From: a virus
IMG/VR virus record: IMGVR_UViG_3300022752_000448
Coordinates: 1 to 21,637 of that record
Length of the DNA: 21,637 nt
Direction: 5' to 3' (one strand)
The notes beneath the pieces were generated by a model that saw only the letters and a program-made list of their open reading frames with translations, did no database searches and was not told the DNA's origin. Made by a program: the position numbers and the translations under genes. Below are positions 10,654 through 21,637 of this stretch, in pieces (positions within the stretch are counted from its first letter, which is position 1; every line of letters begins with the position of its first letter).

Positions 10654-11259
10654 ATGGATAAAAAAACTAATATATATTACTTACATAATGGTGACAATGT
10701 TCCTTTTTATATAGGAAAAACAGTTCAAAAACCATCAAAACGATTAAATAATCATAAAAAAGTTTTTGGAAATAATACATTATTAGAAGTTATAAATATA
10801 GTTGAAAATAATAATTGGTTATTTTGGGAAAAACATTATATTTCTTTATTTAAATTTTGGGGTTTTAATCTAAAAAATAAAAATGAAGGTGGAGGAGGAT
10901 GTATAACTCATGAAGTATCAAAATCTGCTAGAGAAAAAATAAGTAAAACTCATAAAAATCTTAAAAAACCATTTACTGAGTCTCATAAAATAAACCATAA
11001 AAATTCTTATAAGAACAGAAATGTAACTTGGGGAGATAAAATATCAGAAAGATTAAAAGGCAGAAAAATAACATGGGAACAAGGAAATGTAGGAAAACCA
11101 TCTTCACCAATTAACCAGTATGATTTAGAAGGAAATTTTATTAAAAAATGGGATAATATAAAAGATCCTTCTTTAATTTATAAATGTTATATAAGTGGTT
11201 GTCTTAAAGGAAGGCAAAAAACAGCTGGAGGTTATATTTGGGAATATGCAAATAAATGA
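10654..11259 (+). CDS. Free-standing GIY-YIG homing endonuclease with NUMOD-type DNA-binding repeats
   Basis: This is a site-specific DNA endonuclease of the selfish homing type. The catalytic GIY-YIG domain occupies about residues 5-75: IYYLHN (7-12), FYIGKT (18-23), Arg30, Glu59 and FNLKN (71-75), all the expected catalytic elements. Residues about 88-145 contain NUMOD3-like helices (SAREKISKTHKN, GDKISERLKGRKITW). Residues about 152-199 resemble NUMOD1 or the common terminal HTH-like domain (PINQYDLEGNFIKKWDNI, then GYIWEY). The gene is very A-rich and Lys/Asn-rich. It appears inserted between the SegE-like gene and the primase, and its last 14 nt overlap the start of the primase gene. The open frame looks intact. 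It is the best candidate for a recently mobile element here. Confidence 0.9.
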   Translation: MDKKTNIYYLHNGDNVPFYIGKTVQKPSKRLNNHKKVFGNNTLLEVINIVENNNWLFWEKHYISLFKFWGFNLKNKNEGGGGCITHEVSKSAREKISKTHKNLKKPFTESHKINHKNSYKNRNVTWGDKISERLKGRKITWEQGNVGKPSSPINQYDLEGNFIKKWDNIKDPSLIYKCYISGCLKGRQKTAGGYIWEYANK

Positions 11260-13001: not shown

Positions 13002-13799
13002 ATGATCAAACTAACAGATTTATTAAGAGAAGTTATAAATAACCCAAAAGCCATAATCATGGCTGGCGGTGCATCAGTTGGTAAATCAACAGTACTAAAA
13101 TCGTTACAACCCGTATTAAAAGGATTTGTAGACTTAAATGCTGACAAATATGTTGAAGATAAAGATTCTCCAATGTATGGTAATTTATCTGCTGCCTCTG
13201 TTCAAATAAAAAAAACGGATTTACCTAACACTATTGACAACCAACAAAATCTTATTTACGACACTACAGCTTCTAATTTATCAACCCTTCAACCTACATT
13301 AGACATGTTAAATGATAAAGGGTATGAAATAATGATGATAATGGTTTATGCTCACCCCATAGTATCATTTTTAAGAAACTATAAACGTGAACGTAAAGTA
13401 CCAGCAGTTGGTGTTTTAGGAACATGGGTTAATGTTTATAATTTATTAGAAGAATATAAAAATATATTTGGTGATAATTTTGTATTAGTACATACACCTG
13501 CTAGTTCCGAAGAACAAACAGAAATAGATAATTTTGAATCTGCTTATCAACAGGGTACTTTAAAAGAATACTTCTCAGATCTATTATCTTCAGGTCAATT
13601 TCAATCAACCTTTAGAAAAAGTGATGTTGGTTTATCACCTGAAGAATTAGAAAAACGAGAAAAAGACAGAGCCAAAACTAAAATTGTTTTAGAAAAAAAC
13701 ATAGATAAAATAGCTGATACATACGAAAATATCCAATCAAATTTAACCCCAGTTGATATGAAAGAATTGCCTAACATTGTTAAAAATTTTGTTAGATGA
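13002..13799 (+). CDS. Zeta-toxin-like P-loop kinase with capsid-targeting-like leader
   Basis: The 265-residue protein carries a Walker A loop AGGASVGKST (residues 21-30), a VDLNADKYVED segment (Asp48) and IYDTTAS (Asp87). Later come basic residues in FLRNYKRERKV (Arg125, Arg129, Arg131), in the order expected for zeta-toxin/AAA-type small-molecule kinases. Zeta proteins phosphorylate UDP-N-acetyl sugars; relatives phosphorylate other small molecules or nucleic acids, so the substrate is unknown. The first ten residues, MIKLTDLLRE, end in LRE and nearly repeat those of the HAD gene at 15597 (MIKLTDLLKE). I interpret this as a T4-like capsid-targeting leader with a prohead-protease site. The C-terminal ~60 residues are charged and helical. 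No antitoxin gene is adjacent. The next gene overlaps by 4 nt. Confidence 0.82.
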   Translation: MIKLTDLLREVINNPKAIIMAGGASVGKSTVLKSLQPVLKGFVDLNADKYVEDKDSPMYGNLSAASVQIKKTDLPNTIDNQQNLIYDTTASNLSTLQPTLDMLNDKGYEIMMIMVYAHPIVSFLRNYKRERKVPAVGVLGTWVNVYNLLEEYKNIFGDNFVLVHTPASSEEQTEIDNFESAYQQGTLKEYFSDLLSSGQFQSTFRKSDVGLSPEELEKREKDRAKTKIVLEKNIDKIADTYENIQSNLTPVDMKELPNIVKNFVR

Positions 13800-15604
13800 A
13801 ATCATTAGTAAAATCACTTATAACACCGTTTTTAGCAGAAGTTGATATTCCTGTTCCAACTAAAACAATAGGTGTATTTGGAGGTGGGTTTCAACCACCA
13901 ACAAAAGGCCATTTTGAAGTTGTTAAAAAAGCATTAGAATACCCTAACATAAACGAATTTAACATTTATGTTGGTACAGGTGGAGGCAGATCAGAAACAA
14001 TTACCCAAGAACAATCAGTGGCAATTTGGAATATATATAAAAATTATTTACCTAGTATAGTAAATATTATTCCAACAGATAATCCAATTACTTCAATTTA
14101 TTCTTTAGCTAAAAATGAACCTGACACTCAAATCAAATGGTTTTTAGGGTCACGTGAAGGTAAAGAAGAAGATTTTGCTGATTTTGAAAAACGTACCAAA
14201 TCTGCTTTAGGCAAAACAAATATTGAACCCATCAACATTATAACTTCAGATGGTATTAGTGGTACTAAAGCTAGAGCAGTATTAGACGATAAAGAAAAAT
14301 TATTTGCTTATTTGCCTGACATTGAAGAAACAGATAAAGAACAAATATACTCTATTCTACACCCAGTAGAAGAAGGAGAAGAAATAACAAATTTTCTTGA
14401 AGAAAAAATTCAAGGTGATAGTATAGTTTGTGATAATTGTGGTTGGACATGGAAAATAGAGGATGGCGGAAACGATTTATTTATTTGTCACAAATGTGGA
14501 CATGATAATACTCCTAAAAAAGAAACAACTAATTTCTTTGAACCATTACAAAACCAAGACATAGACATTAAAATATCTTCAGAACCTACTAGAGTTGACT
14601 ATTATAAAGACCATATTAAAAATGTAGTACCATCTGATTTTAAAGTTGAAAAACATAAAGATAAAATAGTAGTTTCTAACATTTCTAAACCAGGACTAGA
14701 ACATAACCCTGAATTTAAAGATAAATTAGTATCATTAACATTGTCTATGATAGATAATGGTATAAACATTGAACCGTTACCCGATTTAGTTTTTATAGAA
14801 GATGATAAGAAAAATGCAAACAACATATTAGGACGTACTGCTCATTATGACCCTAATAATAAATGTATTACTTTATACACTTATGGTCGTCATCCTAAAG
14901 ACATATTACGTTCATACGCTCATGAAATGATTCATCACATGCAAAATCTTGAGGGTAGAATTCATGGTATTGAAGGACAAAACATAAATGAAGATGAATA
15001 TCTAAAAGAATTAGAATTAGAAGCATATAGTAAAGGCAATATGTGTTTTAGAGGATGGGAAAATTCACTTAAAGAAAATATTAATGAATGGATTATTGAT
15101 ATTCCAAAATTTAATCAACCTAAAACATTTATAGATAATTTACGTGAATCTTTAAATGAAATTGTTTTGTCTAAAGAAAATGCAGTTGATATAGAGGGAA
15201 GTTTAACCGATGGACAATTTGTAGTAGGAGACCAAAAATATATTTATAAAATTAAAGAATTTCCAACACCTCCATATTACGACCCAGGTGTATTCTACAA
15301 TATAGAATTTTATCCTGAAGGAAACATAAGTTCAGAACCGCAAGGAGGAAAAGAAAATTATGTAAAAATATTATCTACTATGTATAAAATAATAGTAGAT
15401 TTTACTGAACAAGAAAAACCAAAATACATAGGTATTGCTTCTCTTGATAATGAAGGAAGCAAAAGTTACCATACAGTATATGCTAATTTAACAGACAATA
15501 AATTTAACAGAATACCTGGATACTTTAGAAAAGATGTATCTTTAAAATTTGATGGGCCTAGGGGAAAAGGAAAAATGATAGTACTAAAAAGAAAAGATGA
15601 TTAA
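13796..15604 (+). CDS. Nucleotidyltransferase / zinc ribbon / metallopeptidase fusion (602 aa)
   Basis: The leader MKSLVKSLITPFLAE (LAE at 13-15) resembles a capsid-targeting signal. Residues ~23-190 form a HxGH-type cytidylyl/adenylyltransferase fold: GVFGGGFQPPTKGHF (TKGH at 36-39) and ISGTKAR (154-160). Residues ~208-240 are a zinc ribbon (CDNC 212-215, CHKC 231-234), a linker I have seen in other marine phage proteins. A zincin-like domain follows, with HEMIHH at 376-381 and ELEA at 407-410 as the likely third-ligand region, so a gluzincin-type peptidase is plausible. A second leader-like helix ending SLNE (452-455) precedes a distinct C-terminal domain of ~147 residues of unknown function. 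Four-domain fusions of this kind are unusual. ATGA overlap with the kinase and 8-nt overlap with the phosphatase indicate one operon. Substrates are unknown. Confidence 0.85.
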   Translation: MKSLVKSLITPFLAEVDIPVPTKTIGVFGGGFQPPTKGHFEVVKKALEYPNINEFNIYVGTGGGRSETITQEQSVAIWNIYKNYLPSIVNIIPTDNPITSIYSLAKNEPDTQIKWFLGSREGKEEDFADFEKRTKSALGKTNIEPINIITSDGISGTKARAVLDDKEKLFAYLPDIEETDKEQIYSILHPVEEGEEITNFLEEKIQGDSIVCDNCGWTWKIEDGGNDLFICHKCGHDNTPKKETTNFFEPLQNQDIDIKISSEPTRVDYYKDHIKNVVPSDFKVEKHKDKIVVSNISKPGLEHNPEFKDKLVSLTLSMIDNGINIEPLPDLVFIEDDKKNANNILGRTAHYDPNNKCITLYTYGRHPKDILRSYAHEMIHHMQNLEGRIHGIEGQNINEDEYLKELELEAYSKGNMCFRGWENSLKENINEWIIDIPKFNQPKTFIDNLRESLNEIVLSKENAVDIEGSLTDGQFVVGDQKYIYKIKEFPTPPYYDPGVFYNIEFYPEGNISSEPQGGKENYVKILSTMYKIIVDFTEQEKPKYIGIASLDNEGSKSYHTVYANLTDNKFNRIPGYFRKDVSLKFDGPRGKGKMIVLKRKDD

Positions 15605-16166
15605 ATTAACTGATTTATTAAAAGAAGTAGAAGATCAAAAATATACTATCTATTGTGACATGGATGGAGTATTAGTAGACTTTGATAAGGGTTATAAGGA
15701 TTTAACAGGAATGTCTACTAAAAAAGCTAATACGTATCCTAAAATGTTTTTTTGGAGATTTTTTAGAAAGAAATTAAAAGAAAAAAAAATGGATGAAAAA
15801 GATTTTTGGGCTAATTTAGAATCTTATCCTGGAAAAGAAGAATTATGGTCCTATATATCACCATACAAACCAAATATACTTTCATCCCCATCAATAGACT
15901 TTAAACTCCCTCCAAATCAACAACTTGACCCAGAGTATAATGAAGCTATTCAGGGTAAAAAAGCATGGATTTCAAATAATTTAAATAATGTAAATAAAGA
16001 AATTTTTGTTCCTGCCTCTCAAAAACAACAATTTTCTGGCGAAAATAAAATACTTATAGACGATAGAGAAGACAATATAGAACAATGGAAAAGTAAGGGA
16101 GGAATAGGTATCCTTCACACTTCTGCTTCTGACACAATTAAACAATTAAAAGAATTAAAATTATGA
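15597..16166 (+). CDS. HAD-family 5'-nucleotidase-like phosphatase with capsid-targeting-like leader
   Basis: The 189-residue protein has HAD motif I, YCDMDGVLVDFD (nucleophile Asp21, acid Asp23), a possible motif II Ser in ILSSPS (94-99), a conserved-looking Lys region (GKKAWISNNL) and motif IV KILIDDREDNIEQW (Asp155/Asp156). This fits the 5'(3')-deoxyribonucleotidase-like branch, which removes phosphate from nucleotides. The first ten residues, MIKLTDLLKE, differ from those of the zeta-like kinase only at Arg9/Lys9, although the enzymes are unrelated. That points to a shared, transplantable leader ending in an LKE cleavage site. The gene overlaps the upstream fusion gene by 8 nt and the downstream small gene by 4 nt. 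Confidence 0.87.
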   Translation: MIKLTDLLKEVEDQKYTIYCDMDGVLVDFDKGYKDLTGMSTKKANTYPKMFFWRFFRKKLKEKKMDEKDFWANLESYPGKEELWSYISPYKPNILSSPSIDFKLPPNQQLDPEYNEAIQGKKAWISNNLNNVNKEIFVPASQKQQFSGENKILIDDREDNIEQWKSKGGIGILHTSASDTIKQLKELKL

Positions 16167-16504
16167 AAAAATCACAATTACAACAGATTATTAAAGAAGA
16201 AATTCAAAAAGTATTAAATGAAAACAAAGCTAATGATTTAAAAAATTTTATTAAAACAAATAAAGAAGAAGTAATAAACCAATTAAATCAAAGAGAAAAA
16301 AAGAACAAAGACGCTAAAACCATTGATTTTAACATAATATATACTAAAGGAGACAAGGTTTATGCGGAGAGAGATTATCTTCCTATTGGAGAAACAAATA
16401 AAGAAAATACAAGTCTAGATGAAATATCATTTAGTAAAACTACAGGTAAATACGAAATAACAGTATATGGACAAATATTGAAATATTCAATATATAATAT
16501 ATAA
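16163..16504 (+). CDS. Small protein with capsid-targeting-like leader (113 aa)
   Basis: The start MKKSQLQQIIKEEIQKVLNE (residues 1-20) is an amphipathic helix with two (I/L)xE sites (IKE at 10-12, LNE at 18-20), the clearest leader of the set. The remainder is Lys/Asn-rich at first, then a small beta-patterned domain (TIDFNIIYTKGDKVYAERDY and KTTGKYEITVYGQILKYSIY). No catalytic motif is visible. Cleavage would leave a basic mature protein of about 93 residues, comparable in size with T4 internal proteins. ATGA overlap with the HAD gene ties it to the same operon. Function unknown; an internal head protein is the working guess. Confidence 0.72.
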   Translation: MKKSQLQQIIKEEIQKVLNENKANDLKNFIKTNKEEVINQLNQREKKNKDAKTIDFNIIYTKGDKVYAERDYLPIGETNKENTSLDEISFSKTTGKYEITVYGQILKYSIYNI

Positions 16505-16507
16505 ATA
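16500..16507 (+). promoter_or_regulatory. TATAAATA, exact T4-late-promoter-like box
   Basis: The octamer overlaps the stop codon of the upstream gene and lies 28 nt before the ATG at 16536, a normal distance for a T4-type late promoter. The same octamer also occurs by chance within genes of this A/T-rich sequence (for example near 10793), so support is modest. Confidence 0.3.
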
Positions 16508-16535
16508 CTAATACAAGATTAGAAAAATTAGGATT

Positions 16536-16994
16536 ATGAATAAATATAGTTTAGTAAAATTAATGGAGAATGAAGAAGATGGAACATCTAAAAGATTAAT
16601 TCTTAAAAAAAATTTATTATTAATACCTAAAACAAAAACAGCAGAAGAATTTTTAAAAATTATTAATGATCCTAAAAATACAAAAGGAGTATTTGTAAAA
16701 ATCAATACTGATTTATATAATGGGTATTTTGGTCCTCCTGGTCCTCCAAATGTAAAACAAAAATTAGAAAGAGAAAGAGGAGAACCATTTCCTCCTAAAA
16801 CCTCAGATAATATAGAAAAATTCAAAACTGGTTCAAAAGATTTAGGAGCCCAAATACAAGGAAAAAATATTATTTTTACTACTAATGAATTTACTACTAT
16901 TAATTCTATTAAAGGAGATTTAGAAAAAATACTTAAAAATGCTAATTTAGAAAAAGGAACAGATTATACTTTATTAGAAAAAGAAGCCATATAA
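16536..16994 (+). CDS. Small protein with LME-ending leader and collagen-like turn (152 aa)
   Basis: The N-terminus MNKYSLVKLME (LME at 9-11) fits the leader pattern of this block and is followed by an acidic NEEDG. The body is Lys-rich, with FVKINTDLYNGYFGPPGPPN (GPPGPP near residues 66-71) and a C-terminal charged region (INSIKGDLEKILKNANLEKG). No enzyme motif or membrane segment is recognised. It stands 31 nt after the upstream gene behind a TATAAATA box and ends one nt before the next ATG. A weak purine stretch (TTAGGATT) precedes the start. Function unknown; a packaged internal protein is possible. Confidence 0.68.
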   Translation: MNKYSLVKLMENEEDGTSKRLILKKNLLLIPKTKTAEEFLKIINDPKNTKGVFVKINTDLYNGYFGPPGPPNVKQKLERERGEPFPPKTSDNIEKFKTGSKDLGAQIQGKNIIFTTNEFTTINSIKGDLEKILKNANLEKGTDYTLLEKEAI

Positions 16995-16995
16995 T

Positions 16996-17565
16996 ATGCC
17001 AGAAAATGTTCTAAAAAAAGAGTTCCAACAAAAGGACGTACAACGCCTCCGTAACCTAATGACAGGTAAATATGGTGAAAAAACCATTGTTGGAACAGGT
17101 TATACTAAACAACAAGAATTTCATGAAGAAGGTGAAATTTGGGAAGAAGATGGAAGACAATGGACCATCAAAAATGGTATCAAACAAAACATTACTAAAC
17201 TGGATAAAGCAAAAGAATCAATCCATTTACCAATGTTTTGTCCTTGTTGTAGTAATTTAATGAAACCCCACCTTGATAAACGTTTTTATTTACAATATAA
17301 AAGGTGTTTTAATTGTCAGGTTGATTTTGAAACCGAATTAAAAATTAAAGGTTTATGGAACGATTATGAAAAACATATCATCAATTCAGACATTGATGGT
17401 ATAACACAAGAATTTAATATATGGATGGACGAAGAAATAAACGAGTCTAATACATCATACATTACAGAAGCTGGAGACGTAGAACGTTGGGTAGGTTCTT
17501 CAAAACAAAAACTGTTAGAAAGTAAAGAAGAAACAATTAAATACTTACAAAGTTTAAAAAAATAA
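16996..17565 (+). CDS. Zinc-binding phage protein of unknown function (189 aa)
   Basis: Residues 15-70 contain a conserved-looking segment (LMTGKYGEKTIVGTGY, EGEIWEEDGRQWTIKNGIKQ), and a zinc ribbon follows: FCPCCSNLMK (Cys82, Cys85) and CFNC (Cys104, Cys107). A helical, acidic region ends in KEETIKYLQSLKK. I associate the pattern with hypothetical proteins of marine T4-like phages, from memory. Unlike most neighbours it lacks an obvious leader ending in (L/I)xE, so it may act in the host cell rather than in the capsid. It follows the previous stop by one nt. DNA/RNA binding or protein contact through the zinc site is plausible but not shown. Confidence 0.75.
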   Translation: MPENVLKKEFQQKDVQRLRNLMTGKYGEKTIVGTGYTKQQEFHEEGEIWEEDGRQWTIKNGIKQNITKLDKAKESIHLPMFCPCCSNLMKPHLDKRFYLQYKRCFNCQVDFETELKIKGLWNDYEKHIINSDIDGITQEFNIWMDEEINESNTSYITEAGDVERWVGSSKQKLLESKEETIKYLQSLKK

Positions 17566-17567
17566 AC

Positions 17568-17591
17568 CATATTTATTATAAAAATATATGG
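17568..17591 (+). promoter_or_regulatory. Inverted repeat CCATAT...ATATGG enclosing a start codon, with TATTTATT motif
   Basis: CCATAT (17568-17573) pairs with ATATGG (17586-17591) across 12 nt. The start codon at 17588 lies within the 3' arm. The intergenic motif variant ATATTTATTATAA occupies 17569-17581. The hairpin could limit access to the start, or it may be chance in A/T-rich DNA. Confidence 0.3.
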
Positions 17592-17950
17592 AATTTTCTA
17601 AGTTTATATCTTACCTATTTCATTCAAGAACCCAAACCCACATATTTCATTTACAAACACCTTCATTCGCCGAGCATATTGCTTTACAAGCATACTATGA
17701 AGGAATTGTTCCTTTAATTGATGGTTTAGTAGAATCATATCAGGGTAAAAACGGTATAATTAATGATTATACCAATTTTAATTTACAACAATACCAAGGT
17801 AAAGACCAAGTAATAGCATACTTGGATATGTTGTGTAAAGCAGCATACCAAGTGAGAGAAACAATTGAAGATAGTTACTTGCAGAACCAAATTGATACTA
17901 TAACTGAATTAATTAAATCAACTATTTACAAACTAACATACTTACAATAA
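17588..17950 (+). CDS. Helical phage protein, DUF5856-like (120 aa)
   Basis: The conserved-looking pattern HIFHLQTPSFAEHIALQAYY, then YEGIVPLIDGLVESYQGKNG, matches what I recall of the DUF5856 family of phage proteins. The protein is almost entirely helical, with His, Glu and Asp placed at helix-like spacing (His18, His21, His30, Glu39, Asp45, Glu49). This is reminiscent of ferritin/Dps-like four-helix bundles, although metal binding is not demonstrated. There is no leader of the (L/I)xE type. The gene ends one nt before the next ATG. A role in the capsid or in DNA protection cannot be separated by sequence. Confidence 0.75.
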   Translation: MEFSKFISYLFHSRTQTHIFHLQTPSFAEHIALQAYYEGIVPLIDGLVESYQGKNGIINDYTNFNLQQYQGKDQVIAYLDMLCKAAYQVRETIEDSYLQNQIDTITELIKSTIYKLTYLQ

Positions 17951-17951
17951 C

Positions 17952-18200
17952 ATGGCATACAAATACAAATTAGTAAAAGAATTAGGGCCTCAAGACTTTG
18001 AAAAAGAAGAAGGTTATTATAAGGATCCTAAAACCGGAGAAATCAAACAAGGTTCTTTACAAACATCTTTAAATGCAAGAATGAAATCTATGTTTGGTGA
18101 ACCTAACCCTAATAAAGTTAAAAACACTTTTAAATCACCTGAAGAACAAGGTAAAGAAAAATTAACCCAAGAAGTTTTACGTAGACTTAAAAACCGTTAA
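17952..18200 (+). CDS. Small charged phage protein (82 aa)
   Basis: The protein starts MAYKYKLVKELGPQDFEKEE and continues with GYYKDPKTGEIKQGSLQTSL, MKSMFGEPNPNKV and a basic helical tail (KLTQEVLRRLKNR). It is small, highly charged and without Cys or membrane segments. It is preceded by the DUF5856-like gene with a one-nt gap, and its stop codon abuts a TATTTATC motif. The coding frame is supported by compact spacing and amphipathic composition. No family is recognised; a scaffolding or virion accessory role would fit its neighbours. Confidence 0.68.
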   Translation: MAYKYKLVKELGPQDFEKEEGYYKDPKTGEIKQGSLQTSLNARMKSMFGEPNPNKVKNTFKSPEEQGKEKLTQEVLRRLKNR

Positions 18201-18208
18201 TATTTATC
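18200..18208 (+). promoter_or_regulatory. ATATTTATC intergenic motif directly after stop codon
   Basis: Another variant of the recurring motif. It begins at the last base of the upstream stop codon and lies 14 nt before the ATG at 18223. Same placement as at 7406 and 12948. Confidence 0.35.
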
Positions 18209-18222
18209 ACAAATCATTAATA

Positions 18223-18582
18223 ATGGAAAACAAATTACGTATCCTAATAAATCAACTTGTTAAAGAAGAGTTATCGATTTTTGAAAAAAAACTTAAAAAA
18301 GACGAAGAACCTCCTGTTGACGACGTTGAATTAGACCTTAGTGCTTCTGAAGAAACACCTGCTGAAGCTCCTTCTACCGATATGCCTTCAGTTGAGCCAA
18401 GCATGGACATGGGAGGTGGAGAATCAGTTGAAAAACGTATTGGGCAACACTTACAACAAGCATTAGACGCTGCTCGTGAAATGCCTGAAAGTGAAAATAA
18501 AAATAAATTGATAAGACAAATTGGAAACACAGCTTTATTCTTCCTGAAAACCCAAATTCCGGTTGATGGAGGACAAGCTTAA
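18223..18582 (+). CDS. Acidic small protein with leader, possible prohead core/scaffold component (119 aa)
   Basis: The N-terminal helix MENKLRILINQLVKEELSIFE contains VKE (13-15) and IFE (19-21), similar to the leaders of neighbouring genes. It is followed by an acidic, Pro-rich linker (about residues 26-63, with EETPAEAPSTDMPSVEPS) and a C-terminal helical part (RIGQHLQQALDAAREMPESE, then NTALFFLKTQIP). The acidic low-complexity plus helical layout is like prohead core or scaffold proteins. The downstream 175-residue protein has a comparable acidic Pro tail. No catalytic motif. Role inferred from composition and neighbours only. Confidence 0.7.
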   Translation: MENKLRILINQLVKEELSIFEKKLKKDEEPPVDDVELDLSASEETPAEAPSTDMPSVEPSMDMGGGESVEKRIGQHLQQALDAAREMPESENKNKLIRQIGNTALFFLKTQIPVDGGQA

Positions 18583-18605
18583 TATTAACTAAATAAATTA
18601 AATCT

Positions 18606-18779
18606 ATGAACAGTCAAGAGTTATTTGAACAAATGCAAGGTTTATGGGAAGAGTTTACAACTGAACATGCCAAAGCTTCTAAAGCAGCTCATAATAGAGC
18701 TCGCAAAGCAGCTGGCAATTTAAAAAAGTTGGTAACTGAGTACCGTAAAGCATCGGTTGCTGAAGACAAAGCAAAGTAA
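18606..18779 (+). CDS. Short Hc1/histone H1-like DNA-binding protein (57 aa)
   Basis: A short gene that is easily missed: ATG at 18606, TAA at 18777. The product starts MNSQELFEQMQGLWEEFTTE and continues with an Ala/Lys/Arg-rich helix (HAKASKAAHNRARKAAGNLK, then KLVTEYRKAS). The RARKAAGNLKKLV part matches the 'KAAGTRVRK.MQELK.LAQ' style of short Hc1-like proteins common in Bacteroidetes, from family memory. An acidic N-terminal helix followed by a basic one fits non-specific DNA binding. LFE (6-8) and LWE (13-15) near the N-terminus could act as prohead protease sites, which would remove the acidic part and leave a strongly basic peptide suited to packaged DNA. It has an A/T-only leader and a strong hairpin downstream. 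Confidence 0.82.
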   Translation: MNSQELFEQMQGLWEEFTTEHAKASKAAHNRARKAAGNLKKLVTEYRKASVAEDKAK

Positions 18780-18790
18780 CCAAAAACAAC

Positions 18791-18827
18791 AATAAGTTAT
18801 AAGGGGGTAAAACCCCTTATTCTTATT
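18791..18827 (+). terminator. Strong hairpin, likely transcription terminator
   Basis: ATAAGGGG (18799-18806) pairs with CCCCTTAT (18813-18820) around the loop GTAAAA. The stem extends outward through AATAAG (18791-18796) and CTTATT (18822-18827), with a small bulge. It lies 12 nt after the stop codon of the histone-like gene and is the only G/C-cored hairpin noticed in the window. There is no long T run, so termination is probable but not certain. Confidence 0.7.
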
Positions 18828-18840
18828 AAAAACACTTAAT

Positions 18841-19503
18841 ATGCCCTACGAAAGAAAAGGAAAATGCATATACAATAAAAAAACAGGCGAAAAAAAAGGC
18901 TGTTCATCCTCTGTGGGAAAAGCAAAATCTCATATGAGGGCTTTGTATGCTGCTGAAAAGGGTAGTATTAAAGAAGAAACAAGTAAAATTACACAAGCAA
19001 TTCTAGACAGAGCAGAAGACATTTACCAGGCTATGAAAGCCTCTTCTGGTAGAAAAGCTGTAAAAAAATATGGAGCGGATGCTGAAGATGTGTTACGTGG
19101 TAGAGCAATGAACATAGCTAAAAAACAAGTCAAAATGAAAAACACAGACAGACTAAAAGAAATTATTAAAGATGCTTTAAGTGAGAAAAAAAATAAAAAA
19201 TTTCCTGATTTAACAGGTGATGGTAAAGTAACTAAAGCTGATATTTTAAAGGGAAGAGGCGTTGAGTTAAAAGAAGAAGAACTTGATTATGAAGGTGAAA
19301 TGGCTAAATCTGAACTTCTTCGCATCATGCAAAATGCTCAAATGTTAATGTCTTCACTTGATGATGATACACAATTAGAAGCATGGGTACAAAGCAAAAT
19401 TACTAAAGCAGCTGATTACTTAAATTCAGTAACCCAATACTTAACATATCAAAATACAAAACAAGGCCCTGTTGATGAAGAGGCCTATTATTTAGACAAA
19501 TAA
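18841..19503 (+). CDS. Modular phage structural/core protein with Ca-binding-like loop (220 aa)
   Basis: Residues 1-40 (MPYERKGKCIYNKKTGEKKG, then CSSSVGKAKSHMRALYAAEK) form a small basic Cys-containing module known to me from other phage proteins. Residues ~48-100 (ILDRAEDIYQAMKASSGRKA, then KKYGADAEDVLRGRAM) are helical. From Met99 a leader-like segment RLKEIIKDALSE (104-115) appears, followed by DLTGDGKVTKADILKG (123-138), an EF-hand/dockerin-like Asp-rich loop. Residues ~150-205 (MAKSELLRIMQNAQMLMSSL, then AWVQSKITKAADYLNSVTQY) are helical and seem conserved in marine phages. The gene starts 13 nt after the terminator hairpin and ends one nt before the next ATG. It looks like a composite of two proteins. 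A capsid-associated role is inferred. Confidence 0.78.
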   Translation: MPYERKGKCIYNKKTGEKKGCSSSVGKAKSHMRALYAAEKGSIKEETSKITQAILDRAEDIYQAMKASSGRKAVKKYGADAEDVLRGRAMNIAKKQVKMKNTDRLKEIIKDALSEKKNKKFPDLTGDGKVTKADILKGRGVELKEEELDYEGEMAKSELLRIMQNAQMLMSSLDDDTQLEAWVQSKITKAADYLNSVTQYLTYQNTKQGPVDEEAYYLDK

Positions 19504-19504
19504 A

Positions 19505-20032
19505 ATGGCAAGTAAACAGGAACTTATAGATAAAATTCAAACAATAGCTAAACGTGTTTATTCTTCTAAAATAAAGGATAACACGTTAGGTGTTACTCCT
19601 AGTGACGTAAATTTTGATAAAGAAACATTTCCTGTTTTATCAAAGTTTCCAACTCTAAAACAAATTATTATAAATCTTTTAACAAAACAATACGAAGATT
19701 TTATTTCTGACATTCATTGGGTTGCTCCTCGTCCTACTACTTTTAAAATCCTTTTAGCAAATGGACAGTATTTTTACTTAATATACACTGAACGTTCATG
19801 GATTGCTCAAGTTGAAGGTAAAAAGTACTATATGTTAAACTTAGACGAGGAAGAAAGAGCAGCTGAATCTATTGCTCGCATACTAATGTATGGTAGTAAA
19901 AACAAAGAAGAAGAAACACCAGCCGAAGTACCAACAGGAGGAGAAACACCTGCTGACGAAACAGTACCTGAAGCACCCCCAACTGAAGAAACACCTCCAA
20001 CAGAAGAAGTACCTGAAGAAGTTCCAGCATAA
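19505..20032 (+). CDS. Conserved phage protein with acidic Pro-rich tail (175 aa)
   Basis: Residues 1-125 form a compact alpha/beta domain with ISDIHWVAPRPTTFKILLAN, GQYFYLIYTERSWIAQVEGK and YYMLNLDEEERAAESIARIL. I have the impression of seeing this sequence pattern in other marine phage genomes. Residues ~136-175 are a low-complexity tail built from degenerate ETP/EVP/EAPP units (about 40 residues, strongly acidic). The tail is reminiscent of the acidic linker in the 119-residue protein at 18223, so both may take part in one assembly, such as a prohead core. The start is one nt after the preceding stop, and there is a 2-nt gap to the next gene. Function unknown. Confidence 0.75.
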   Translation: MASKQELIDKIQTIAKRVYSSKIKDNTLGVTPSDVNFDKETFPVLSKFPTLKQIIINLLTKQYEDFISDIHWVAPRPTTFKILLANGQYFYLIYTERSWIAQVEGKKYYMLNLDEEERAAESIARILMYGSKNKEEETPAEVPTGGETPADETVPEAPPTEETPPTEEVPEEVPA

Positions 20033-20034
20033 TT

Positions 20035-21012
20035 ATGAATATGTTTGACAAATTTTTAAATAGTATTTCTCATAAATTCCCTAAAGGATATCCTGACATG
20101 AATAATGAACAGGATATTTTATTGTTAGAAACTTTAATAAATAAAGTGTTAGGTGAAAATGTAAAATTAAATGAAATGGGAATTTTAACTGAAAACGATA
20201 ATTCATATGATGATTTAATAAAATTATCTTTAAAAGTTAAAACAATCCCAAAATGCCAAACTCCCTTAGTTGTAGGCAAATCATTTTCTTTAACAGGAAA
20301 AGACGCTAAAATATGGGCTAGTCTATACTCAATTAAACCTTTAAAAGCAGATGGTACACCAACCGCAGGTTCAGGAAATGGAGAAGTGGCTACATATTGG
20401 GCTTATCAACATAATATAAAACCAATAAGTACTCAAGATGGTAGAGGAGGAGACAATCCCGATTTAATTATTAGTGGAATTGGAGTTGAAGTTAAAGCAT
20501 ATGACACTTCAACTATTACTTTAGGTAAATTTAAATCTGATGGAGAAAGTGTAAGTTTATTAAATAGAGTATTTGGAGTTTTAACTTTATTTGGTGAAGA
20601 AGATACTAAAGCTAATGCAGGTGGATTTAAACCTCAAGATTTATTAAACAGTTTTACTATAATATCAAGTGTGTATAATAATAAAGAATTAAGATCTTTA
20701 TCTGTTACTCAACCATTTTTTGTTAAAATAGATAATCTGTATAAAGAATTAGGATTAGAATCTAATCCCACCCCAAAACAAGCTACTGTTGCTTTGTTAC
20801 GTAAACTTTTATGGAGTAAATTAATTAAAAAACCTAATAAAAATCAAGAAGTAGGATACATTTTAAATGTTGCTCTTAACGGAGCAGGAGAATATACTAA
20901 AATTACTAAACAAATAATAGATAGTATACCTGATGATAGTTTTATAAACAACGGAGTTACAGTTAAATCTTCTGAAATACAAATGAATTTTAATCAATTA
21001 TTCAAATCATGA
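20035..21012 (+). CDS. PD-(D/E)XK nuclease-like protein with long removable N-terminal leader (325 aa)
   Basis: The N-terminal ~53 residues (MNMFDKFLNSISHKFPKGYP, then NEQDILLLETLINKVLGE) end in LNE (45-47) and LTE (51-53), two possible prohead protease sites. The rest forms a globular domain. GSGNGEVATYW (Glu117), NPDLIISGIGVEVKAYD (Asp143, Glu152, Lys154) give the E...PD-x8-ExK pattern of restriction-type PD-(D/E)XK nucleases. It is followed by an alpha-helical part with a Gly-Ala-Gly turn (LNVALNGAGEYTKITKQ). The motif is short and needs structural confirmation. If real, this would be a nuclease that matures in the capsid and is delivered with the DNA. The start is 2 nt after the preceding stop; the end overlaps the next gene by 4 nt (ATGA). 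Confidence 0.75.
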   Translation: MNMFDKFLNSISHKFPKGYPDMNNEQDILLLETLINKVLGENVKLNEMGILTENDNSYDDLIKLSLKVKTIPKCQTPLVVGKSFSLTGKDAKIWASLYSIKPLKADGTPTAGSGNGEVATYWAYQHNIKPISTQDGRGGDNPDLIISGIGVEVKAYDTSTITLGKFKSDGESVSLLNRVFGVLTLFGEEDTKANAGGFKPQDLLNSFTIISSVYNNKELRSLSVTQPFFVKIDNLYKELGLESNPTPKQATVALLRKLLWSKLIKKPNKNQEVGYILNVALNGAGEYTKITKQIIDSIPDDSFINNGVTVKSSEIQMNFNQLFKS

Positions 21013-21637
21013 AACAACGCCTCCTAGAAATAATAAAAAAAGCATTAACAGAACAACCCAAAAAGAAAAAATGCGATTGTGGTTGCACTGAATGTACTAG
21101 TGCTCCTTTATTAAACGAATCTAAACAATACAACATGGCTATTTCTGAAAACATGAGATACCATTTAGACAACAAGATTCAAATCCATGACAACATTTTC
21201 AGACCAGGCTCAAAATCACACATTGAACTGATTCATGAAGCTCGTTTGTTATGGAAAAAAGAAATTATTGAATTAAAAGAAACTGATAAACATTTATTTG
21301 AAAACACAGATTTAGGTCGTTTTGGAATGTATGAAGGTGAGGTGGTTCCACTTGATTATCCAATGATGGAAATTGAAACTTTAACAGAAGCCGAATTAGA
21401 AGAAGAAAAAAAACAACCTGCTTTAGGTAAACCAAAACGTGGTGGTTCTAAAAAGTTTTATGTTTATGTTAAAGATCCTAAAACCAAGCGTATTAAAAAA
21501 GTATCATTTGGTATGGCAGGTGGTGGATTAAGAGCAAAACTTAATAATCCTAAAGCACGTCAAGCGTTTTCAAAAAGACATGATTGTCCTAATAAAAAAG
21601 ACAGAACAAAGGCGTCGTACTGGAGTTGTGCATTGCC
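21009..21637 (+). CDS. Multi-module phage protein with capsid-targeting-like leader (3' end outside window)
   Basis: The gene is open to the right edge (209 complete codons visible). The start MKQRLLEIIKKALTE (LTE at 13-15) matches the leader pattern, followed by a basic Cys cluster KKKKCDCGCTEC (Cys22, 24, 26, 29) that may bind zinc. Residues ~42-120 (ISENMRYHLDNKIQIHDNIF, then LGRFGMYEGEVVPLDYPMME) and ~145-209 (KKFYVYVKDPKTKRIKKVSF, then NNPKARQAFSKRHDC and SYWSC) are two domains I recall from many marine phages and also from large algal viruses. The second has His191, Cys193 and Cys207. The ATGA overlap with the nuclease-like gene indicates coupling. A virion or capsid-core role is likely; exact function is unknown. 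Confidence 0.8.
   Translation, partial: MKQRLLEIIKKALTEQPKKKKCDCGCTECTSAPLLNESKQYNMAISENMRYHLDNKIQIHDNIFRPGSKSHIELIHEARLLWKKEIIELKETDKHLFENTDLGRFGMYEGEVVPLDYPMMEIETLTEAELEEEKKQPALGKPKRGGSKKFYVYVKDPKTKRIKKVSFGMAGGGLRAKLNNPKARQAFSKRHDCPNKKDRTKASYWSCAL

Follow-up and report, generated by a model that had tools for sequence, protein, structure and literature searches.

Leaders resembling capsid-targeting propeptides on unrelated, exchangeable cargo proteins in a clade of T4-superfamily phages

Introduction

Capsid targeting has so far been worked out mainly for the internal proteins of T4, for a few giant phages and for P1. In T4, the protease gp21 cuts after L/I-x-E, leaders of 10-19 residues target the internal proteins to the core, and the capsid targeting sequence has been suggested to let T4-like phages take in various proteins (PMC9026906). 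In SPN3US and phiKZ, the cleavage of unrelated head proteins follows a short motif with Glu as its last residue, and two paralogues are identical over their first 15 residues (PMC5694885). In P1, the 30 N-terminal residues of DarB suffice for the packaging of a reporter, and the proteins concerned counter restriction (PMC9024508). The present analysis concerns the N-terminal leaders ending in (L/I)xE that are encoded by a 21,637-base stretch of viral DNA (the window, IMG/VR record IMGVR_UViG_3300022752_000448), together with their counterparts in related phages. Very probably, these leaders serve a clade of T4-superfamily phages as capsid-targeting propeptides that are cleaved off, as those of the T4 internal proteins are. 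The best reading of the sequences is that they may form a genome-wide, exchangeable cargo-loading system, T4-like but much elaborated.

The resemblance to T4 lies in short, (L/I)xE-ending N-terminal tags carried by unrelated proteins, there IPI-IPIII, Alt and the gp24 propeptide, and in a gp21-family protease and a gp23-family capsid, both of which also occur in relatives of the window. Unlike T4, the clade possesses at least five leader classes, a far larger number of carriers spread over the genome, cargo that includes enzymes, and a leader of ~45 residues (class E) with swapped cargo. It also has a leader class that copies the C-terminus of the scaffold, a feature that was not recognized by eye in T4. 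SPN3US differs by its A-x-E motif, by several propeptides of more than 100 residues and by a diverged protease, and the accessible part of the SPN3US/phiKZ description contains no cargo swap at the cut (PMC5694885). Compared with P1 DarB, the leader classes described here are common to many proteins. Pelagibacter phage HTVC008M (Kyanoviridae) encodes relatives of the kinase, cytidyltransferase and nucleotidase of the window in the same order, each N-terminally extended, as well as an S77 protease; its extensions are different. No account of leaders in this clade was found in the literature, where papers on a “capsid targeting sequence” concern T4, SPN3US, P1 or P22 as far as their titles and the beginnings of their abstracts indicate, most subscription journals lying outside the scope of the search.

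A megablast search with the window as query found no match among 50,697 phage records. A long relative, G025, is a 160,798-base record collinear with the window over a 20-kb stretch; it is probably a complete genome because it carries a 127-base terminal direct repeat. It has homologues of 25 of the 26 window genes (E-value of at most 1e-3), and the order is the same for 23 of these. Among cultured phages, the nearest relative found was Flavobacterium phage vB_FspM_immuto_2-6A (immuto, NC_055915.1, 160,410 bases), with homologues of 17 of the 26 genes; in its annotation, a terminase, a gp20-like protein, the prohead protease and gp23 follow 3' of the matching cassette. The clade probably infects Bacteroidota, the host being deduced from this single cultured relative, which grows on Flavobacterium. 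Gene starts in the uncultured records are the calls of a simple in-house caller.

Leaders and their carriers

The sequence-only reading of the window held that unrelated proteins encoded by a block of ~8.6 kb share T4-type targeting leaders cut by gp21. The seven gene starts that it named (13002, 13796, 15597, 16163, 16536, 20035 and 21009) and their N-terminal peptides exist as described (Table 1), and the unrelatedness of the mature domains behind common leaders is borne out by pair scores and by class hidden Markov models (HMMs). A strict leader rule was defined as [LI]xE with the E at residue 8-24, preceded by no P, G, C, H or W, with at least 30% L/I/V/M/F and at least one K or R. It is passed by six of the 26 window genes, compared to 0.9 +/- 0.9 expected from shuffled N-termini (maximum 5 in 500 shuffles) and 0.2 +/- 0.4 from internal segments of the window. 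All six belong to the 14 genes from position 13002 on and none to the 12 upstream (one-sided Fisher p = 0.013). The rule misses the products of 13796, whose leader contains Pro, and of 20035, whose leader is long. In G025, 21 of 218 genes pass (shuffled 5.4 +/- 2.1, maximum 14); ten records were tested in this way, and G020 (6 genes; shuffle maximum 7), G021 (2; 5) and G022 (3; 3) display no excess over shuffles.

Such strings could arise by chance in an A+T-rich phage whose proteins, rich in K, E and L, have helical N-termini. Background is high for the bare [LI]xE rule (72 observed and 41.9 expected in G025), and the terminase large subunit of G025 passes the strict rule as a false positive. 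For the set as a whole, the shuffled and internal controls, the recurrence of the same classes in different phages and the cargo swaps described below disfavour this explanation, which we consider scarcely credible.

Sorted by pattern, the leaders fall into at least five classes, A to E (Table 1), with 15 class matches among the 218 G025 genes and 13 among the 216 immuto genes. Carriers in immuto include gp078 (class E), gp083 (class C), gp080 (class B) and, for class D, gp003, gp076, gp077 and gp092. When immuto is left out of the training, the HMMs of classes A-D still recover N-termini of immuto. Reversed-protein decoys yielded one weak match each for class B (E-value 0.9) and class C (E-value 0.1), and three matches of the class C HMM lie elsewhere than at N-termini, including that to the scaffold tail (see below). 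Across eight records, 66 pairs of N-termini with unrelated remainders score at least 38, while the same count is 3 for residues 31-54, 5 for C-termini and 1 for shuffled sequences; 62 of the 66 are left after removal of repeated promoter-like DNA. Four of the 16 high-scoring G025 pairs consist of such DNA read as coding, and about six of the 15 in immuto were judged to be signal peptides, tail-fibre paralogues or similar. Class A is close to the N-terminus of T4 gp24 (MAKINELLRE).

A DNA element, TTGTTTGGC...GATGTTATATTCAGGTATAATTAAAAA, recurs ahead of several small genes on the reverse complement of G025 (99300-104100, L051-L052); it looks like a repeated promoter misread as a common N-terminus, MLYSGIIKN.

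Individual carriers are strengthened by their relatives to different degrees. The [LI]ME site of the 16536 product is kept at the same place in its relatives of L002, L003, L004, L008, L029, L030 and L031, and the counterparts of the 21009 leader read MKQLIIEAIKSALLE in G025 and MKQRLIEIIKKTLTE in L005. The 16163 product harbors two candidate sites, IKE12 and LNE20. Two weaker leader forms had also been proposed. The first, at 18223, probably is a true leader: the G025 relative begins MNTKLKSLIQQIIKEE, and the gene at the corresponding place in L032 (4052) encodes a protein with MKRSDLKELIRKNIIQEL at its start and a scaffold-like tail at its end. It is a weak case, which individually could be due to chance. 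The second, at 18606, was ruled out, as the N-terminus belongs to a histone domain: the product (18606-18779) is a whole Hc1 histone of 57 amino acids (PF07432, 42.3 bits for a cut-off of 23.5, E-value 7e-11), with the domain covering residues 5-55. The proposed cargo range, from enzymes to a histone-like protein, needs correcting for the histone, which bears no leader. In immuto, the homologue of this Hc1-type histone is located far from the cassette, at 42260. The block itself is a place of enrichment and not of confinement: leader genes are scattered around the G025 and immuto genomes. Five genes of the block (16996, 17588, 17952, 18841 and 19505) bear no such leader.

Table 1. Leaders of the window, their cargo, and the patterns of the leader classes (positions are those of the window)
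Feature	Position	Strand	Remarks
Window	21,637 bases		Whole IMG/VR virus record; fragment that ends before the prohead-protease region
Leader class A, MIKLTDLLRE	13002..13031	+	Gene 13002-13799, zeta-toxin-like P-loop kinase; G025 relative has MIKLTDLLKE
Probable leader MKSLVKSLITPFLAE	13796..13840	+	Gene 13796-15604, NadR-like nucleotidyltransferase
Leader class A, MIKLTDLLKE	15597..15626	+	Gene 15597-16166, 5'-deoxyribonucleotidase
Leader class B, MKKSQLQQIIKEEIQKVLNE	16163..16222	+	Gene 16163-16504, product of 113 amino acids, function unassigned
Leader MNKYSLVKLME	16536..16568	+	Gene 16536-16994, function unassigned
Weaker leader MENKLRILINQLVKEELSIFE	18223..18285	+	Gene 18223-18582; passes strict rule
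Long leader class E, KFPKGYPDM, about 45 residues	20035..20193	+	Cut candidates LNE47 and LTE53
Swappable cargo of 20035 protein	20194..21012	+	PD-(D/E)XK-nuclease-like domain
Leader MKQRLLEIIKKALTE	21009..21053	+	phrog_7595 product, function unassigned; gene runs off the record
Pattern of class A			MIKLTDLLKE
Pattern of class B			MKKSxLKxIIKEEIxKxLxE
Pattern of class C			NEQFxRMQKLAGIITE
Pattern of class D			NFDLKKFLVENKLTxNSKLLxE
Pattern of class E			About 45 residues, KFPKGYPDM

Cargo exchange behind conserved leaders

The clearest view of the relation between leader and cargo is offered by the 20035 slot. Of the 15 columns that are invariant among 12 aligned proteins from this slot, 11 fall within residues 1-27, and the remainders of the proteins form groups without convincing similarity to each other (best cross-group E-value 0.02). 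At the DNA level, L012 and L015 are 91.9% identical up to codon 45, share nothing in the cargo, and are again 90.4% identical from the stop codon on; the break falls at the predicted cut, LNE44 and LKE44, respectively. L005 and L029 exhibit the same pattern, with a leader identity of 76%. A comparable break is found for class B: the DNA of gene 16163 and of L005 is 85.2% identical up to codon 20, which corresponds to LNE20, and unrelated thereafter. The 29 breakpoint pairs are not mutually independent, and in several of them the DNA match merely peters out, either within the leader or far beyond it in the protein (codons 7 to 59).

A scan for the class E leader identified 397 viral-contig stretches. 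The best 80 of these 397 loci were read and contain 71 unique proteins, of which 69 were used, two short, cut-off ones being dropped. The [LI]xE motif occurs within residues 36-70 in all 69, compared to 21% of control windows. By their cargo, the 68 proteins with a mature part of at least 40 amino acids fall into eight (single linkage) to 11 (50% coverage) families. Their leaders are about as similar within as between these families (63.8% identity over 1,351 pairs and 63.0% over 927 pairs), so the class E tag and its cargo recombine freely. In the fold model of the 20035 protein, two leader helices are followed by a segment, residues 43-55, with a predicted local distance difference test (pLDDT) value below 50 that includes both cut sites, and the chain is folded from residue 58.

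Cargo swaps that happen at leaders are also what one would expect if the leader DNA were mainly a recombination seam or a gene-start cassette devoid of any targeting role. Along the same line, L012 (17504-18056) contains two class B-leader genes that are inserted, relative to L015 (14469), exactly at the leader DNA, with an overlap of about 40 bases in the alignment. This arrangement suggests that cargo genes are gained or lost by recombination between leaders. A pure seam is nonetheless highly improbable: the leader DNAs of 13002 and 15597 differ mostly by silent changes, the peptide being preserved, amino-acid features persist in distant phages, and the scaffold tail described below sits at a C-terminus, where a gene-start cassette is not expected.

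Protease, capsid and scaffold

The protease that would cut such leaders, S77 (gp21), was searched for in three sets of records. Matches exceed the cut-off of Pfam in 6 of 22, 1 of 4 and 7 of 9 records, the collinear G025 and immuto included. Among the longer records carrying the class E leader it reaches 12 of 16, all five of at least 128 kb included. The GEL.HP and SSRG motifs, which we take to hold the catalytic His and Ser of S77, are kept in all ten proteases aligned with T4 gp21. A gp23 match was obtained in 7 of 17 records; G025 and immuto each encode gp23 as well as a scaffold, and the capsid precursors possess two conserved Glu sites in their N-arm, GLLEG and [LI]VxE (8/8).

In all eight genomes, the gene that precedes the one for the capsid protein encodes the putative gp22 scaffold. 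Its C-terminus reads R(M/W)Q(K/R/Q)(L/I)AG, with another two or three residues behind, and this motif is the core of the class C leaders (RMQKLAGIITE). In G012, G019 and immuto, class C leaders are the best matches to the scaffold tail (scores 42-55, the next ones being 29-30). In G025 a cargo C-terminus scores 45, three class C leaders 38-43 and the rest 26, and in G005 the highest score (41) goes to a site in the interior of a related cargo. The motif pattern occurs 21 times in 248,625 residues: ten times at N-termini, nine times at C-termini (eight of them scaffolds) and twice internally in one family. The cargo-like proteins L030 16354, L032 4052 and L014 11470 end in a scaffold-type tail, e.g. 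NESFIKMQKLAGIIK, as if the docking tag could sit at either end of a protein. As the same motif ends the scaffolds and forms the class C core, class C cargo would bind whatever the scaffold tail binds. Mimicry of the scaffold tail as a general rule of T4-like phages was considered and is unsupported by the compared parts of HTVC008M and Melnitz and, by eye, by T4.

The leaders might instead address another site, such as the membrane, a replication compartment or a chaperonin, or act as cytosolic assembly adaptors, the (L/I)xE being incidental. Such a role would fit the amphipathic helix, which can serve interactions of many kinds, the several ordinary enzymes of metabolism among the cargoes, and the scattering of leader genes around the genome. 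The prohead is indicated by the homology breaks (LNE44/LKE44 and LNE20), by the disordered linker around the cut, by the copy of the scaffold tail and by the presence of S77 in the same phages, and we regard another address as unlikely.

The proposal that the leaders are T4-type propeptides agrees with most sequence tests, namely the occurrence of S77, the unrelated carriers and the swap at the predicted cut. A number of observations weigh against it. The 21.6-kb window record contains no head genes, and no virion proteomics for this clade was found in the literature searched. The window also lacks a match to phrog_24, a result that has no bearing on the protease. Four of the 16 longer records with the class E leader have no S77 match, owing to incomplete records or to true absence. 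The P3 position of the conserved [LI]VxE site in the capsid arm is V instead of L/I, and the false-positive terminase belongs here as well. The L029 relative of 21009 has no leader helix. Relatives of 13796 in L018 and L020 start ...SELVGDN, with no [LI]xE at that place, so the 13796 leader is a weaker case that individually could be chance. The jumbo phages Atu_ph07, Phosso, XacN1 and RAS14 bear S77 and a nucleotidase without a leader; the rule that S77 implies a nucleotidase leader was rejected on account of these four. Finally, no scaffold-tail match stands out in G020-G022; none was present in the parts of the gene sets of HTVC008M (83 segments) and Melnitz (39 segments) that were compared, and none is evident by eye in T4.

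Identity of the cargoes

The three enzymes at the start of the cassette can be assigned by profile searches. The 13002 product matches Zeta_toxin (PF06414, 51.2 bits, cut-off 22.3). The 13796 product matches a cytidyltransferase family (phrog_395, E-value 6e-4), its immuto homologue is annotated as NadR, and it also bears a zinc-ribbon-like motif and a peptidase-like HExxH motif. The 15597 product matches PF06941 (28.7 bits, cut-off 24.8) and phrog_2643 (E-value 9e-27). Among 22 relatives of this nucleotidase, 16 are standalone and five are fused behind the NadR-like protein (L001, L014, L018, L020 and L021); L019 was assigned to neither group. All 16 standalone forms have an [LI]xE ahead of the catalytic motif, in L017 not at the end of the leader; in the fused forms, the N-terminus of the NadR-like protein leads.

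The cargo of the 20035 protein contains invariant residues P142 D143 ... E152 V153 K154 in 8 of 8 sequences. A structure search returned weak similarities, the best nine rows (Z 3.4-4.3, including Hjc, DpnI and MspI) presumably all belonging to the PD-(D/E)XK superfamily; other folds (J-domains, LysRS and others, Z 2.0-2.9) were taken as noise, and the best Foldseek E-value is 0.09. Representatives of several other class E cargo families fit a loose D...[ES]xK pattern, which is no more than suggestive. For the second cargo group, the modelled fold is poor (pLDDT 61.6). Sequence searches of the PDB with two cargo profiles gave nothing useful, and ten class E proteins submitted to Pfam gave nothing above the cut-off. 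In PHROGs, some class E proteins match different families of unassigned function, the better matches being made via the cargo part. Our guess is that the cargo serves early control of nucleotides and nicotinamide adenine dinucleotide, or counter-defence.

Other features of the window and its relatives

A DUF5856 protein (17588-17950, E-value 3e-20) without a leader lies inside the cassette. Upstream, a gene at 10654-11259 is, by eye, GIY-YIG homing nuclease-like, and a similar G025 gene is found elsewhere, at 152260. A scan of the window for transfer RNA genes found none. In immuto, the region 18607-37015 of NC_055915.1 is annotated with QueC, QueD, QueE, QueF, FolE and DpdA, which suggests that its DNA is modified with 7-deazaguanine; QueC-, QueD- and QueE-like genes were also recognized by eye in G025.

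Implications

If the leaders are indeed capsid-targeting propeptides, the short N-terminal tag would dock its cargo onto the core or the shell of the prohead during assembly, class C cargo probably riding in by imitating the C-terminus of the scaffold. The S77 protease would then cut after (L/I)xE and free the mature cargo inside the head, from which it would enter the host together with the DNA, possibly for use in take-over or counter-defence. Tag and cargo are separable, in that recombination exchanges what lies behind a retained tag, the breakpoints falling at the cut or close to it. A bolder version, to which we give even chances, is a plug-in form of virion loading: tags that mimic the head core (the scaffold tail for class C, the gp24 propeptide for class A) would make almost any protein a passenger, leader DNA would be the seam of exchange, and the 20035 slot would act as a hypervariable bay whose nuclease-like weapons reach the host along with the genome.

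Were this so, sequence alone could predict which uncharacterised proteins are virion cargo. Capsid targeting would be general in a widespread clade of aquatic phages and would comprise several tag classes, a single leader already being represented in 397 viral-contig stretches. With the copy of the scaffold tail, the docking of a tag has an explanation that can be put to the test, and cargo swaps as clean as these suggest that the passengers are caught in an arms race. As handles for the packaging of proteins, the tags might also be tried in laboratory phages of Bacteroidota.

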